Source: an uncultured Subdoligranulum sp. | Lineage (GTDB): Bacteria; Bacillota_A; Clostridia; Oscillospirales; Ruminococcaceae | Assembly: GCF_937890665.1 (NCBI RefSeq) | Contig: NZ_CALADU010000323.1 | Coordinates: 1-5,306 of the forward strand | Direction of reading: 5' to 3' | Length of the DNA: 5,306 nucleotides | Shown: positions 160-5,306 of the stretch, piece by piece | Numbering within the stretch: the first letter of the stretch is position 1 | Layout: every line of letters begins with the position of its first letter | The notes under the pieces: generated by a model | Told to the model about the DNA's origin: nothing | The model's input: the letters and a program-made list of their open reading frames with translations, nothing else | Databases searched by the model: none | Made by a program: the position numbers and the translations under genes

Positions 160-849
160 TTAACTTTCGATTGTGCCATCCAAGGGAATAGGCGATGGAG
201 AAGGCGGCGGTGTGGTGGGTGTAGGTTCAGGCGTAGGCTCCGGCGTAGGGTCGGGGGTCGGCTCCGGAGTCGGCGTTACTTCGGGCGTCGGCGAGGGCCG
301 GGGCGTGGGAATCTCCATCACGAAATCGTAGTACATGACGGTCTGCATGCCGCACTTATCGCAAACCATCGTGTAGGTTCTGCGTAGTAAGCTGCTTCCA
401 TCCTCGTAAGTCTCCAAGGTCTCTACATCTTGTGAAACTTGGCGATAGACATGGCTGCAAGCCGCCGCGCTGGACCCGTCAGAGCCATCGCGGCCATCCC
501 GGCCGTTTGCGCCGTCCGCGCCATCCTGCCCGGCAGGACCGGCCGCACCTGTTTCGCCTTTAGCCCCGGCGGGGCCTTGCGCGCCTGTCGCGCCATCTTT
601 TCCATCGATACCATCGGCACCGTCTTTGCCATCCTCGCCGTCTTTCCCATCCCGACCAGGCTCGCCCTGCGGGCCGCGAAGATCCTCGACGGCGATCAGG
701 TTTTCCCAATCAGTGCCGTTATAATACTGTATGTAGCCGTCCGCGACCTGCATCTGGATTTCCGGCGCGTCGGCCTCGCGGGTCTCTTGTCCGCATGCCG
801 CCAGCAGGGACGCCATAAGCAGTACAGCCGCAATTTTTCCTGCTTTCAT
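160..849 (-). CDS. Collagen-like surface lipoprotein with Cys/His cluster and proline-rich tail
   Basis: A 229-aa protein with ATG at 849 and GGAGG at 859-863. Residues 1-19 are a signal peptide ending in lipobox LAAC (Cys19), so it should be membrane-anchored and face outward. Residues 38-58 carry a short segment (DGYIQYYNGTDWENLI) of the kind that often precedes collagen repeats in Clostridia surface proteins. Residues 59-127 are 23 uninterrupted Gly-X-Y triplets rich in GKDG/GADG, which should form a collagen-like triple helix. A C-S-H (131-133) and C-D-K-C (163-166) set could bind a metal. Residues 181-222 are a Thr-Pro/Glu-Pro tail. There is no LPXTG sorting signal, so anchoring is by lipid at the N terminus. 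The toxin gene ends 27 bases upstream with no visible terminator, so read-through expression from the toxin-antitoxin locus is possible. Ligand and role are unknown; adhesion is only a guess. Confidence 0.85.
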   Translation of the reverse strand: MKAGKIAAVLLMASLLAACGQETREADAPEIQMQVADGYIQYYNGTDWENLIAVEDLRGPQGEPGRDGKDGEDGKDGADGIDGKDGATGAQGPAGAKGETGAAGPAGQDGADGANGRDGRDGSDGSSAAACSHVYRQVSQDVETLETYEDGSSLLRRTYTMVCDKCGMQTVMYYDFVMEIPTPRPSPTPEVTPTPEPTPDPTPEPTPEPTPTTPPPSPSPIPLDGTIES

Positions 850-876: not shown

Positions 877-1293
877 TTACATGATCCGATTTTCAAAATA
901 TTGTAATGTACTGTAGCGTGTTATGTTTGCGTAGTGTGGGTTTCCATGGTTTTGGACAGCTTTTATGTACAGCTTCAAATAGCGGGCAAACTCTCTTGCG
1001 ATTCGTGAGTCCTGACCTTTCAGCGCATTAAATTCATCCTGGTCGATTTGAACGCGATCCGGCGCTATGTAGCTGCCATCGGGAACGACTACCGCTTTTG
1101 TGTAGTCCAACCCACAGCCGGGCTTTGTAATAAAGGCGTACTTGTGGGCGATGTGGTGCCGGAATGGGATCGCAAAGGTCACACCTGAGATATAGACAGC
1201 CAGGCAGGCGTAGGGACGGGTCGGCTTTTTCAAAATCTCCTTACACCCGCCATACTCTGCGTAAAACTTTTGGGACAAGTATATGAGTTTCAC
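877..1293 (-). CDS. Type III toxin-antitoxin endoribonuclease toxin (ToxN/AbiQ superfamily, CptN/TenpN-like)
   Basis: A 138-aa protein read from GTG at 1293 with AGGAGG at 1299-1304. No in-frame ATG lies near this start, and the GTG start gives the family-like N terminus (V/M)KLIYLSQKFYAEY. Other family-like blocks are RPYACL (26-31), FAIPFRHHIAHKYAF (40-54), GLDYTKAVVV (61-70) and a C-terminal helical region with YLKLYIKA (105-112). I recognise these from memory as ToxN/AbiQ-superfamily toxins of the CptN/TenpN branches; no search was run. Such toxins are small sequence-specific RNases that cut host and phage mRNA and process their own antitoxin RNA. They are held inactive in a protein-RNA complex. 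The size is within the family's usual range. The context supports the call strongly: a two-unit RNA repeat array and an intrinsic terminator lie directly upstream. CptN is my first choice and TenpN the alternative. Catalytic residues were not assigned. Confidence 0.88.
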   Translation of the reverse strand: MKLIYLSQKFYAEYGGCKEILKKPTRPYACLAVYISGVTFAIPFRHHIAHKYAFITKPGCGLDYTKAVVVPDGSYIAPDRVQIDQDEFNALKGQDSRIAREFARYLKLYIKAVQNHGNPHYANITRYSTLQYFENRIM

Positions 1294-1305
1294 ATAAACC
1301 TCCTG

Positions 1306-1342
1306 AAAAAGGAAAAGCCCTCTGCCGTGAAGCAGAGGGCTT
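1306..1342 (-). terminator. Rho-independent terminator between antitoxin RNA array and toxin gene
   Basis: On the minus strand an 11-bp stem, AAGCCCTCTGC paired with GCAGAGGGCTT, closes a 6-base loop TTCACG and is followed by TTTTCC then TTTTT. It ends just before the toxin's AGGAGG. In known type III systems a terminator at exactly this place lets most transcripts stop after the antitoxin while leaky read-through makes a little toxin mRNA. Confidence 0.93.
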
Positions 1343-1476
1343 TCTTCCATTGAGCTTTTTTTAGATTATGCTGCTTGCGCTCTACAAGCAAATCATGCCA
1401 TTGAGCATTTTTTATTTTTGGCTCGCCGCGCTCTACGGCGATATCATGCAGGCGATGCGGCAGGCACCTTTCCTGT
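1315..1476 (-). ncRNA. Type III antitoxin RNA precursor (ToxI/CptI-like)
   Basis: The predicted transcript starts about 7 bases after the -10 element (near 1476, approximate) and ends in the terminator. It contains a 5' leader of about 28 bases with a possible small hairpin (GGTAC pairing with GTGCC, one G-U pair), then two 51-nt repeats, then the terminator stem. In the family, the cognate toxin cuts such a precursor into single repeat units, each binding and inhibiting toxin. Here the units share ends CATGAT (5') and GCTCAATGG (3'), so the cleavage site probably lies near that junction; the exact base is not visible. The gene is not a protein gene despite an open frame across it, because the sequence differences between repeats preserve RNA base pairs. 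Confidence 0.88.
1347..1448 (-). repeat. Two tandem 51-nt antitoxin repeats, each an H-type pseudoknot
   Basis: Unit 1 spans 1448-1398 and unit 2 spans 1397-1347, both exactly 51 nt with 37 identical positions by my count. Stem S1 pairs unit positions 8-13 with 21-26: TCGCCG/CGGCGA in unit 1 and TGCTTG/CAAGCA in unit 2, so four pairs change on both sides and pairing is kept. The 7-base loop TAGAGCG is invariant. Its GAGC (16-19) can pair with the invariant GCTC (43-46), forming S2 of an H-type pseudoknot. Positions 27-42 are the A-rich connecting strand. Stem, conserved loop, A-rich strand and distal complement match the known architecture of type III antitoxin RNAs. Confidence 0.9.
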
Positions 1477-1482
1477 ACCCTC

Positions 1483-1511
1483 ATTATATTCAATTTTCCG
1501 TTGAAATGCAA
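1483..1511 (-). promoter_or_regulatory. Sigma-A type promoter of the type III toxin-antitoxin locus
   Basis: On the minus strand, TTGCAT (1511-1506), a 17-base spacer, and a perfect TATAAT (1488-1483). The predicted start lies near 1476, giving a short leader before the antitoxin repeats. No copy of the phage operator is seen here, which suggests expression independent of the prophage repressor. Confidence 0.78.
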
Positions 1512-1563: not shown

Positions 1564-2190
1564 TCAAAACCAGTGGGTGTACCCAACGGCCTTCCCCTCG
1601 ATATGAACCGTATCAAGGATTGGGCCGGTGTAGACCAAGGGAGCAAAGTTCCGATTCTCGGCCAGCAGGGTCATGGTCTGGGTTTCTTCGTTCCAAAAGA
1701 AGCGCTTCAGGGTAGCTTCCCCGCCTATGCGGACGGCGGCAATCTGGCCGTTCTCGACTTGCGGTGTGATGTGGATATAGACCACATCGCCATCGTGGAT
1801 TCCTGCGTCGATCATGCTGTCGCCTTTGCAGCGCAGGCAGAAATCACATTGAACATTCTCCGGCACGTCCACATAGTCCTCGATGTTTTCCTCGGCCGTG
1901 ATCGGTTCCCCGCAAGCGATACTGCCCACCAGAGGGCGCTTGACCATTTTGGGGAGCGGCTCGAAGCCGGGAGGGATGGGCGCAGAAGACGGATGTGCAT
2001 CATCAAGTATTGCGCTTTTCGGAACCCCGAAATAGGCGGCCATTTTTTCCACAGCTCCCATACGGGGAGTTTTAATATCTGCTTCCCAAGTGGAAACGGC
2101 CTTGTCTGTCACACCAGCTATTTTTCCGAGTTCCGCTTGAGACAGTTGTGCATCTGTGCGAAGTCGTTTGATGTTCGATCCTATGCTCAT
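1564..2190 (-). CDS. LexA/CI-type prophage repressor: XRE helix-turn-helix plus S24 peptidase
   Basis: A 208-aa protein with ATG at 2190 chosen because AAAGAGG (2204-2198) is then 8-9 bases upstream; an in-frame GTG at 2199 and ATG at 2196 lie too close to that site. Residues 1-60 form an XRE-type DNA-binding domain (LSQAELGKIAGVTDKAVSTWE is its helix-turn-helix core). A linker follows, then an S24 peptidase domain: cleavage-region motif IACG (Cys93-Gly94, comparable to the Cys-Gly site of UmuD), GDSM with nucleophile Ser125, and EATLKRF with Lys162 as general base. The family represses lytic genes and cleaves itself when RecA filaments form after DNA damage. Its gene is divergent from the Cro-like gene across a region with palindromic operators. 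All key residues are present, so it is probably functional and SOS-inducible. Confidence 0.93.
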   Translation of the reverse strand: MSIGSNIKRLRTDAQLSQAELGKIAGVTDKAVSTWEADIKTPRMGAVEKMAAYFGVPKSAILDDAHPSSAPIPPGFEPLPKMVKRPLVGSIACGEPITAEENIEDYVDVPENVQCDFCLRCKGDSMIDAGIHDGDVVYIHITPQVENGQIAAVRIGGEATLKRFFWNEETQTMTLLAENRNFAPLVYTGPILDTVHIEGKAVGYTHWF

Positions 2191-2211
2191 GTTCATCACC
2201 TCTTTATATGT

Positions 2212-2570: not shown

Positions 2571-2759
2571 ATGCAGATTCTTTCAATTGAAAACGGCCTT
2601 CCGTTGCTTGACGGAAAGCCGGTTGAGGGAATGATTTCATTTGAATTGAGTGCGAACAATACGGGGACAGCAGTTTTTACACCCAAAATCGAGGTCAAAT
2701 TAAGGAAGTCCCAAGCTGGCTTTTATTGCAGCGGCGACAACAGCCGAAGCAATACTTGA
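2571..2759 (+). CDS. Small early-operon protein of unknown function, tail possibly altered
   Basis: A 62-aa protein with ATG at 2571 and a strong AAAGGAGGTG at 2555-2564; the in-frame ATG at 2541 lacks such a site. I do not recognise a named family. It begins MQILSIENGLPLLDGKPVEG and continues FELSANNTGTAVFTPKIEVKL, a compact beta-rich pattern of a type seen in small phage early proteins. The last 60 bases (from 2700) are antisense to the C-terminal codons of the DUF2513 gene on the other strand, and that encoded tail (KSQAGFYCSGDNSRSNT) differs in character from the rest. The tail may therefore have been acquired when the antisense gene entered the operon. It lies 36 bases after the Cro-like gene and is probably in its transcript. 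Confidence 0.65.
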   Translation: MQILSIENGLPLLDGKPVEGMISFELSANNTGTAVFTPKIEVKLRKSQAGFYCSGDNSRSNT

Positions 2760-3086
2760 AAGTGTTGAGAGAGAAAGAGAACCCACTTTCGATGCAGTGG
2801 ATTTGACTTTTGACCAGTTATCGTTGCTTCTGATATTCGCCAAAAATTCATGAGCCGCCGGAGAAAGGTCTTCTATAAAATAAGTTCCATACATGTCTTG
2901 GCTTGCCTTATAGAAATATCCTGAAAGGTCACACTGACGAAGATGGTAGGACAATTCTTCCCAGTTGTAAGTTCTTCCATCCATTGTAAGTGTGGTTCCA
3001 GGGTCAAATTCAACACCAGAAGTCGTTGTACATTTATCTTCACAATACATGAGAATATCTCTTACACAATCTGGATTCAATCTCAT
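2700..3086 (-). CDS. DUF2513 family protein (function unknown)
   Basis: A 128-aa protein with ATG at 3086 preceded by AAAGGGGGTGAG (3101-3090). A frame extending to 3242 is rejected because it has no ribosome binding site and reads through GC-rich upstream DNA. The protein opens MRLNPDCVRDILMYCE and contains YHLRQCDLSG (47-56) and the block DLSPAAHEFLANIR with SNDNW (73-91), which I recognise as the DUF2513 signature, a small winged-helix-like family frequent in phages and mobile elements with no established function. The C terminus (100-128) is a Ser/Ala-rich helix. The gene is opposite to the surrounding operon, visibly AT-richer than the genes after 4029, and has its own candidate promoter, so it looks like inserted cargo. 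Confidence 0.85.
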   Translation of the reverse strand: MRLNPDCVRDILMYCEDKCTTTSGVEFDPGTTLTMDGRTYNWEELSYHLRQCDLSGYFYKASQDMYGTYFIEDLSPAAHEFLANIRSNDNWSKVKSTASKVGSLSLSTLSSIASAVVAAAIKASLGLP

Positions 3087-3327: not shown

Positions 3328-3951
3328 TCAGCGTACTCGCTTGCCAACTGTAACAGGAAATGAAACAAGGTACTCCCATCTGGGAGAATCGGTTTGCATA
3401 CCAGACCAATATTTTACGGCAGAATTCAGATTTAAAACAGGGGAAAAACCCAAATAGGAGCCCCCTATAGAGCCTTGGTTTAAAACATATCCACCTCTAA
3501 GCCATTTTGAGTCGAATCGCTGTGTAGAGTCAGAAACGGATATCTCGTACACGTGACAATCTGGGGGAAAATTACAGTCTTGCCATTGTACGAATTCCTC
3601 TATCGATGCTACTGCGAAAAGACATTGCATGCGGGAAGGAACTTTTGGAAAAAGGGCGCGTCGAACCAATTCAAAATTGTACTCACAAAACGAATTGTCC
3701 AGATCCCTTTTAGCGGCAGAAAAATCATCGGGAAGAATTATTTCTATACGATTGTTTCCATTCGGGAGCCAGTAACTTCTTATATCCCGAATACAATCGT
3801 CGAAGTAGTGTACCCCATGTCTTGAAAGTCCATCAGGATAAAGATCATAAATGACGTGCAAATCTTTTTGAGCCAAGTGATAGTTGTTTTCTAACGTTAA
3901 GGTTATTCCCTCAGACAATAAATTTTCCCGATCGGCATGGTACAAAATCAT
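3328..3951 (-). CDS. Unrecognised 207-aa protein, antisense cargo gene; possible ADP-ribosyltransferase-like fold
   Basis: ATG at 3951 is chosen over in-frame GTG at 3960 because AGAAAGG (3967-3961) then has normal spacing and the protein begins MILYHADRENLLSEG. I cannot assign a family with confidence. Visible landmarks are LYHADRENLLSEG (3-15), VRRALFPKVPSRMQCLFA (96-113), VYEISV (134-139) and YWSGM with WEYLVSFPVTV (181-202). An N-terminal strand with His, then a late strand with Glu (Glu193), recalls proteins with an ADP-ribosyltransferase-like fold and some DUF-annotated cargo proteins, but this is inference from layout only. No membrane segment or signal peptide is seen. It is AT-rich, opposite to the operon, and has a candidate promoter of its own, so it looks like a moron, possibly in defence or host interaction. 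Confidence 0.7.
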   Translation of the reverse strand: MILYHADRENLLSEGITLTLENNYHLAQKDLHVIYDLYPDGLSRHGVHYFDDCIRDIRSYWLPNGNNRIEIILPDDFSAAKRDLDNSFCEYNFELVRRALFPKVPSRMQCLFAVASIEEFVQWQDCNFPPDCHVYEISVSDSTQRFDSKWLRGGYVLNQGSIGGSYLGFSPVLNLNSAVKYWSGMQTDSPRWEYLVSFPVTVGKRVR

Positions 3952-3972
3952 TTTTATCACCCTTTCTAATTC

Positions 3973-4640: not shown

Positions 4641-4910
4641 ATGGACAGCAAAATTTCGATTGCCTGGGCACATGGTGCAGCGGCAAATCACGGAGAGATT
4701 GAGGTCTCCGTGTGTGCGAACAAAGTGGACACGTTTTTTGCACTGGCCCGCGCCACAAGCGGCATTCTGCGCCAGGGAGCCAAGCCGGATGCTTTCGACG
4801 CGCTGCTGCTGGAGTATATCGGCCTGCTGATCGACGTGGCCCATGACGACGGCGAGAAGGCCGTCGGGCTTGACCTCGGCGCCACGATGGGAGCCGACGA
4901 CAATGGTTGA
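4641..4910 (+). CDS. 89-aa early protein of unknown function preceding the exonuclease
   Basis: ATG at 4641 with AGGAGG at 4625-4630, spacing 10. The 89-aa protein has a beta-like N terminus (KISIAWAHGAAANHGEIEVSV) followed by helices (residues 27-44 and 52-68, including FDALLLEYIGLLIDVAH) and an acidic C terminus. No catalytic motif or named family is recognised. It overlaps the exonuclease start by eight bases, so the two are translationally coupled and may act together in DNA recombination or replication; this link is by position only. Codon choice is GC-rich, like the genes on either side, fitting a native member of the early operon. Confidence 0.78.
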   Translation: MDSKISIAWAHGAAANHGEIEVSVCANKVDTFFALARATSGILRQGAKPDAFDALLLEYIGLLIDVAHDDGEKAVGLDLGATMGADDNG

Positions 4911-5306
4911 ACTCATCGACACCGGCCTGGCCCAACCCCGGAACACGGCTGAATGGCTGGCCTGGCGGCGGCAGGGCATCGGGGCCAGCGAGGCCAGCGC
5001 CGTCGTGGGGCGCAACCCCTACCTGAACAACCAGACGCTGTGGCGCTATAAGACCGGGCAGGCCGAGCCGGAGGACATCAGCGGCAAGGCGTGCGTCCAG
5101 TATGGCCATGACGCTGAGGCACCCATCCGCGAACTGTTCGCGCTGGATCACCTCGAGTTTACCGTGCAGTATGGCGGGGCTTTCGATATGGTGCGCCACC
5201 CGGACTATCCCTGGCTGTTTGCCACGCTGGACGGCCGCCTGATCGAGCGCAGCACCGGCCGGCGCGGCATCTATGAGGGCAAGACCACCGAGATCCTGCG
5301 CAGCAT
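4903..5306 (+). CDS. YqaJ/lambda-exonuclease family recombination nuclease, N-terminal part (runs off right edge)
   Basis: The start is ATG at 4903, with GGGAG near 4889 and an eight-base overlap with the preceding gene; 134 codons are visible. The motif GIGASEASAVVGRNPY (25-40) with LWRYKTG (46-52) is the hallmark N terminus of YqaJ-like viral recombinases. Candidate catalytic residues of the PD-(D/E)XK nuclease fold are Glu72 (in YGHDAEAPIRELF), Asp110 (ATLDG), and Glu125 and Lys127 (YEGKT). The family degrades one strand of duplex DNA from a 5' end to leave 3' single strands for a partner annealing protein of RecT/Bet type, which would be expected just downstream. All visible active-site positions are intact. 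The C-terminal part is not in the window. Confidence 0.93.
   Translation, partial: MVELIDTGLAQPRNTAEWLAWRRQGIGASEASAVVGRNPYLNNQTLWRYKTGQAEPEDISGKACVQYGHDAEAPIRELFALDHLEFTVQYGGAFDMVRHPDYPWLFATLDGRLIERSTGRRGIYEGKTTEILRS

Follow-up and report, generated by a model that had tools for sequence, protein, structure and literature searches.

A complete predicted TenpIN-family type III toxin-antitoxin locus with 6A RNA repeats in a probable prophage region of an uncultured Subdoligranulum sp.

The closest described relatives of the locus treated here are the type III toxin-antitoxin systems TenpIN (Photorhabdus luminescens), CptIN and ToxIN/AbiQ. The locus lies on the minus strand at positions 877-1511 of a 5,306-nucleotide (nt) stretch of DNA, hereafter the window, from an uncultured Subdoligranulum sp. 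(contig NZ_CALADU010000323.1). TenpIN of Photorhabdus aborts phages (PMC5377504), whereas CptIN stabilizes plasmids and showed no phage abortion in E. coli (PMC4627078). Antitoxin repeats of 50 nt in 2.1 copies are published for TenpIN, repeats of 45 nt for CptIN of Eubacterium rectale, and repeats of 34-36 nt in 2.8-5.5 copies for ToxI. Phage PhiTE (142 kb) carries toxin-less antitoxin-like repeats, pseudo-ToxI, through which it can escape a type III system; one escape phage acquired ToxI itself, and pseudo-ToxI is described as the first case in which a non-coding RNA of a phage evolved into a suppressor of a system of this type (PMC3475682). In a C. difficile prophage, the toxin AbiF is neutralized by the upstream two-motif RNA RCd22, a likeness to the window locus that is limited by AbiF being an Abi_2 protein, by the RNA motif being RF03085 and by the motifs not being cut apart (PMC12373285).

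As to its parts, the locus in the window is an ordinary TenpIN system, and a complete one. A promoter-like site, two 51-nt direct repeats, an intrinsic terminator, a Shine-Dalgarno sequence and a 138-amino-acid frame follow one another on the minus strand, and each of the parts named in the initial annotation is present. The promoter-like site (1483-1511) combines a -35 box TTGCAT (1511-1506), a 17-nt spacer and a perfect -10 box TATAAT (1488-1483); a consensus scanner leaves it unlisted because the -35 box agrees at only three of six consensus positions, and a looser scan returns it, with 9 of 12 matches, as a candidate promoter. The repeats lie at 1396-1446 (R1) and 1345-1395 (R2) in the Rfam alignment, or at 1398-1448 and 1347-1397 by repeat search. 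The terminator (1313-1344), a 14-pair stem with a folding energy of -24.1 kcal/mol and a z score of -5.85, separates the array from the toxin gene. AGGAGG (1299-1304) stands 5 nt ahead of the GTG at 1293, a start position shared by most aligned homologues, and the frame ends with its stop at 877. The repeat length, the two copies and the terminator between array and toxin resemble published TenpIN; the window system differs in its 6A-type RNA, in its place beside a prophage repressor and in having repeats 73% identical, the RNA of the founding member being outside the comparison. Its 51-nt repeats also set it apart from the shorter ones of CptIN and ToxIN, and the two copies from the larger arrays of ToxIN. 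The adjoining repressor gene, likewise called by the annotation, lies upstream of the array (1564-2199, minus strand), is CI/LexA-like with helix-turn-helix (HTH) and Peptidase_S24 domains, and matches phrog_4, transcriptional repressor (E 2.4e-38); the window is probably the early/lysogeny region of a prophage.

The 138-amino-acid toxin (877-1293, minus strand) belongs to NCBIfam NF047358 (TenpIN, an equivalog model) by curated cut-off, scoring 140.3 bits against 90 over residues 6-136. TenpIN is the sole matching NCBIfam model, in a library that may lack a CptN model. PHROGs places the protein in phrog_8049, of unknown function; Pfam returns no match at E up to 1, PADLOC nothing for the toxin, and a PDB sequence search at E up to 10 two matches, neither a type III toxin. 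One database search yielded 176 homologues at E up to 0.001, and an alignment (A1) of the window protein with 30 homologues, taken from 120 listed of the 176, has 20 invariant columns. A structure model built from A1 has a mean predicted local distance difference test (pLDDT) value of 95.4. Its top Foldseek match is 4ato (ToxN, B. thuringiensis; E 0.019, probability 1.00), and a second fold comparison ranks 4ato (13.3), AbiQ 4glk (12.5), ToxN 7d8o (11.6), ToxN 2xd0 (11.5) and CptN 4rmo (10.4) ahead of a MazF-like toxin (7.0). The predicted structure thus has the ToxN/CptN fold, and the toxin is a predicted endoribonuclease. The annotation had called the protein ToxN/AbiQ-like, which stands for the fold and fails for the sequence, which is of the TenpN type; membership in ToxIN/AbiQ (4ato, 2xd0, 7d8o, 4glk) was rejected, given no sequence match in Pfam or PDB and the plan of two 51-nt repeats. 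The annotation's type III reading is supported. Phage and plasmid collections hold merely distant relatives of the toxin (one record and 70 plasmid records, respectively), and at the DNA level four records show 66-78% similarity over part of the query.

Both repeats belong to the Rfam family RF02925, 6A RNA. R2 scores 62.5 bits and R1 45.8 bits against a gathering cut-off of 41.2 (E 3e-11 and 7e-7 for the two matches), which places the array beyond chance; a covariance model of our own, built from 30 6A repeats with the window's among them, gives R2 71.9 and R1 60.6 bits. Rfam assigns RF02925 the type 'Gene; sRNA', which lacks an antitoxin label, and gives 'Gene; antitoxin' to another family, PtaRNA1. 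Window matches to snoZ168, ctRNA and mir-17 were dismissed as under their gathering scores. The 6A RNA was reportedly first described by Weinberg et al. in 2017. A literature search linking 6A RNA or RF02925 to Rfam or antitoxins returned no paper, the original description of 6A and the founding paper of TenpIN being outside its coverage.

Each 6A repeat is predicted to form an H-type pseudoknot, on strong covariation in stem 1 and sparse but consistent covariation in stem 2. In the window, the pairing claimed in the annotation, stem 1 plus a loop GAGC with a 3' GCUC, is present in both copies. The proposed fold of a 7-base-pair stem 1 and a 4-base-pair stem 2 was tested on 30 aligned repeats from relatives and the window: 98.8% of 328 cells are paired, double changes occur at 9 of 11 pairs (seven in stem 1, two in the pseudoknot stem), and covariation is 0.499, where shuffles give 0.177 and a slid pairing no more than 0.090. 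The first repeats taken by themselves, 15 in number, have 97.7% of 131 cells paired; six of nine pairs show double changes, covariation is 0.389 against 0.152 for shuffles, and the count of further pair types does not exceed what shuffling yields (114/500). Stem 1 supplies most of the signal, and variants of stem 2 still pair, as GGGC/GCCC (L003, L031) or GAAC/GUUC (L040 and the toxin-less copy L096). In single-sequence folding R1 has a z score of -2.16 and R2, at 0.09, is no more stable than shuffles; the structure is therefore carried by covariation, not energy.

Surveys of bacterial genomes tie 6A to TenpN toxins from both directions. A toxin-first search with A1 gave 27 genome loci and five viral loci (L029 repeats L003, and the upstream DNA of L023 is a near copy of that of L008). 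Among these 32, 6A reaches the gathering score in 15, L006 (39.3 bits) and L009 (41.1) fall just short, and the remaining 15 also lie below; our model weakly matches all eight spirochaete loci of those 15 (21.4-26.4 bits) and gives the other seven at most 13.7 bits. Read by eye, nearly all toxin-first loci show promoter, two repeats, terminator and toxin. Scripted scans covered 33 regions, window included. In 32 of them (all but L028) a promoter candidate ranked first or second falls 155-224 nt ahead of the toxin, and in 32 (L021 was missed) a stem of at least 10 pairs stands before the toxin; a T-rich tail was scored and not required. RNA-first, RF02925 was searched with stricter filters in overlapping samples of 391, 394 and 397 genomes and exceeded its cut-off in 11, four of them already known by toxin. 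In all seven new genomes 6A is followed immediately, in the same orientation, by a TenpN frame, which is complete in six (124.8-151.4 bits) and shortened in the seventh (L048, 23.5 bits). A match in G803 under the cut-off (30.4 bits, no toxin) was treated as chance.

The converse sampling shows that 6A is one version of the antitoxin RNA and not the TenpI as such. Among 394 genomes of the family of genome G003 (locus L007, labeled Lachnospiraceae), 15 carry a TenpIN toxin over the cut-off and three of these a 6A RNA over its own. Eleven of the other 12 have, by reading, a different repeat kind of about 52 nt on the same plan, with a loop CGGU pairable with ACCG; L059 and L067 show one copy, and the loop of L067 deviates. 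L071 has a third kind, neither 6A nor CGGU. A repeat finder run on eight of these loci found a tandem pair of 49-53 nt in seven. In seven loci (L060, L061, L063, L065, L066, L068, L070) the CGGU-kind TenpIN antitoxin RNA is present twice, each copy being about 52 nt long.

Antitoxin RNA type and toxin clade go together. A tree of 54 toxins was labeled by upstream RNA (6A 25, CGGU 11, spirochaete 8, GGG 5, other 5); it omits L023, L029, the shortened L048, L069, L072 and L073 as second copies, L076-L086 as weaker or partial matches, and L099 and L107, which were found later. The labels change four times on this tree, the minimum possible, against an average of 26.6 in shuffles, and the 6A label changes once, as it also does in 95% of bootstrap trees.

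Repeats within an array are commonly unequal, and two groups conserve R1 and R2 as separate sequences, as the identities within and between loci show. Across eight related loci, R1 and R2 average 69% identity when taken from one locus (the 53% of L005 is lowered by a one-base register shift), against 81% for R1s and 89% for R2s of different loci. For seven spirochaete loci the figures are 68% within and 96% and 96% between. In the group of the window, L001, L011, L028 and L031, R2 is kept (91%) and R1 is not (70%), with 72% within loci. Near-identical repeats occur in three loci, L028 (90%), L041 and L046 (98% each). On these identities, the two units may have distinct roles in a 2:2 toxin complex.

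Copies of 6A without a toxin occur in viral contigs. Six pattern scans of IMG/VR matched 23 contigs; the patterns were self-made and not exhaustive, and the ratio of toxin-bearing to toxin-less contigs is therefore no census. Five (L055, L092, L094, L095, L100) are not 6A, with no model match or at most 17.1 bits. The model matches the other 18, nine with a toxin (L030, L053, L056, L057, L058, L093, L099, L104, L107; 8.5-40.5 kb) and nine whose complete records gave no toxin match at E up to 10 (L054, L096, L097, L098, L101, L102, L103, L106, L108). Viral records may be fragments, and the DNA immediately behind the repeats is present in each. Seven toxin-less contigs were put to Rfam: L054, L096, L097, L098, L101 and L103 pass the gathering score, and L102 does not. 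The nine represent about six lineages, given that L096/L098, L101/L103 and L106/L108 each share the same stretch, and they include all four contigs above 100 kb (L096, 122 kb; L097, 106 kb; L103, 110 kb; L108, 149 kb). A tyrosine recombinase occurs in two of the three tested contigs of this size (L108 was not among them), so the large phages are not called virulent.

The toxin-less repeats of large phages or their fragments (L096:6792-6893, L097:4909-5016, L102:2354-2404, L103:4625-4675) partly share a setting. L096, L102 and L103 have a common order of phosphoesterase-like gene (in L096 a match under the Pfam cut-off), 6A, CxxC-containing protein (phrog_3314 except in L102) and terminase; a ClpP-like gene lies in the same stretch of L096 and L102, and a tRNA near 6A in two of the three lineages. 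Skipping-rope RNA (RF02924) follows shortly after the 6A pair at L096:6928-7013 and L098:2576-2661. The L097 repeat at 4909-4959 is divergent, with a loop UAGCCGA whose 7 nt, by eye, all complement a downstream UCGGCUA; the pseudoknot stem of 6A is shorter, at 4 base pairs. Pieces of L096 and L103 gave nothing in a megablast against phages, and that of L097 had matches in ten Lactococcus phage records, limited to 61 bases. In L054 (1551-1650), a promoter-like site, two 6A repeats and a terminator lie between an HTH gene and an integrase-like gene, both identified by eye, and no toxin gene occupies the slot. Single repeats stand on the minus strand of L106 (12174-12224) and L108 (7226-7276), contigs from two samples that are alike at 1958 of 1962 compared positions, the latter 148.6 kb long. 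In this repeat 50 nt agree, without a mismatch, with the second repeat (1104-1153) of L107, which is a complete TenpIN locus, and no other 25-mer is common to the stretches compared (2.6 kb of L107, 10.2 kb of L108). For the other toxin-less repeats, the highest identity to a compared toxin-linked repeat is 69-84%. No PHROG matches the 100-amino-acid frame that follows the L108 repeat, and an unrelated partner protein is conceivable there.

By analogy with pseudo-ToxI, and given the identity between L106/L108 and L107, the toxin-less copies are likely antidotes against TenpIN toxins. Wild-type PhiTE differs in having 1.5 repeats, no full unit and a need for expansion (PMC3475682), whereas toxin-less 6A occurs as one complete TenpIN-type unit or as two.

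Taken as a whole, the window locus is best explained as a complete TenpIN-family type III toxin-antitoxin system of a likely prophage, with a 6A antitoxin, an anti-phage role and phage-borne 6A as its counter, a reading to which we give a probability of about 0.9. Family, predicted fold, repeat plan, conserved pairing, terminator and the linkage of 6A with one toxin clade in bacterial genomes were obtained directly here. A single promoter would drive the 6A array, the terminator would pass a minority of transcripts on to the toxin gene, and the toxin would cut the precursor between repeats into 51-nt pseudoknots that close around the toxin and silence it. The complex is perhaps a ring of two toxins and two RNAs as in CptIN, a stoichiometry proposed because the array has only two repeats. 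As a lysogeny-module gene beside the repressor, the locus would protect the lysogen against other phages: an infecting phage would shut down transcription, the short-lived RNA would be lost and the freed toxin would halt the cell, and large phages with toxin-less 6A would bring the RNA with them, so that the toxin stays silenced. The broader proposal that 6A is the antitoxin of a TenpIN clade borne largely by temperate phages, that large phages captured single repeats as antidotes and that the many arrays with two different pseudoknots, one per position, may build an asymmetric 2:2 complex is, in our judgment, evenly poised between right and wrong.

Several findings weigh against this explanation. 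The window locus is known from sequence and predicted structure alone, its prophage status comes from neighbor genes alone, and its -35 box is weak, leaving the promoter-like site below the stricter scan's threshold. The best Foldseek E-value is just 0.019 despite the probability of 1.00, and the likeness to ToxN, whose active-site residues are listed in PMC5086642, is one of overall fold. The pseudoknot stem is mostly invariant and its double changes rest on one sequence each; the 6A clade has support of 92/92, below the strict mark; TenpIN toxins with other antitoxin RNAs are common, as the three of 15 sampled genomes indicate; and half of the pattern-found viral 6A contigs lack a toxin. Anti-phage action is known for Photorhabdus TenpIN (PMC5377504), while none was seen for CptIN in E. 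coli (PMC4627078). The CptIN result, with its plasmid stabilization, the integrase downstream in six relatives and the 70 plasmid records with distant toxin relatives agree with a pair that serves to keep the prophage in the cell by addiction and not to block other phages. We regard this alternative as a serious one with less than even odds, since phage abortion by Photorhabdus TenpIN speaks against it and toxin-less 6A in large phages makes most sense if the toxin hurts infecting phages.

The toxin-less copies could themselves be decayed toxin-antitoxin loci. L048 (G1035), which retains both repeats beside a shortened toxin, and L054, which retains promoter-like site, repeats and terminator, are chiefly the loci for which decay is possible; as an account of the toxin-less copies it is rather unlikely, because the large-phage records hold no toxin match at E up to 10, six such repeats (the second of L054 included) pair in 60 of 60 cells with double changes at six of ten pairs, and L106/L108 contain just a single unit and share no further 25-mer with L107. 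It is improbable that 6A is primarily a structured phage RNA with its own job, which TenpN adopted or merely adjoins by chance. The nine toxin-less contigs among 18, and the fixed place between phosphoesterase-like and CxxC-protein genes in three large-phage lineages (two with tRNA, one with skipping-rope RNA), would fit such a role, but the toxin frame right behind 6A in seven of seven new bacterial genomes, the RNA types tracking the toxin tree with minimum changes and a layout that, terminator included, is that of type III systems do not. On the preferred reading, an antitoxin countered by phage-borne copies, the window locus appears to assign a function to an RNA family typed by Rfam as sRNA only, and its value lies in naming 6A and exposing the toxin-less copies. 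In phage genomes, such copies become a signature, recognizable from sequence, of predicted RNA antidotes to type III systems; if the reading is true, they form a class of counter-defense in which the phage makes a single pseudoknot of the antitoxin that belongs to its host.

Relatives of the window locus share parts of its setting. Temperate phages keep lysogen-expressed genes in the region beside repressor and integrase. Among 20 neighbor genes scanned from 11 loci, L003 and L032 lie between an upstream repressor and a downstream integrase (with a 170-amino-acid frame between toxin and integrase in L003), L030 and L031 have a repressor-like gene upstream, and L004, L006, L007 and L009 an integrase downstream (in L004 beyond a 270-amino-acid frame); L010, L012 and L028 have neither among the scanned neighbors. 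In the window, a small HTH gene (2334-2534) is divergent from the repressor, and an incomplete RecE/YqaJ-type nuclease gene crosses the right end. Directly behind the toxin gene, a lipoprotein-like gene (160-849, minus strand) contains collagen triple-helix repeats (Pfam Collagen, 42.2 bits). DUF2513 and DUF2441 genes (2703-3086 and 3328-3960, minus strand) run opposite to the early genes and are flanked by similar ribosome-binding stretches, as if separate inserted cargo. The viral contig L028 carries a type II hammerhead ribozyme (627-691, minus strand), and FuFi-1 RNA occurs in two 6A-bearing viral contigs (L030:2306-2567, L054:2613-2771), with a sub-gathering match in L029.
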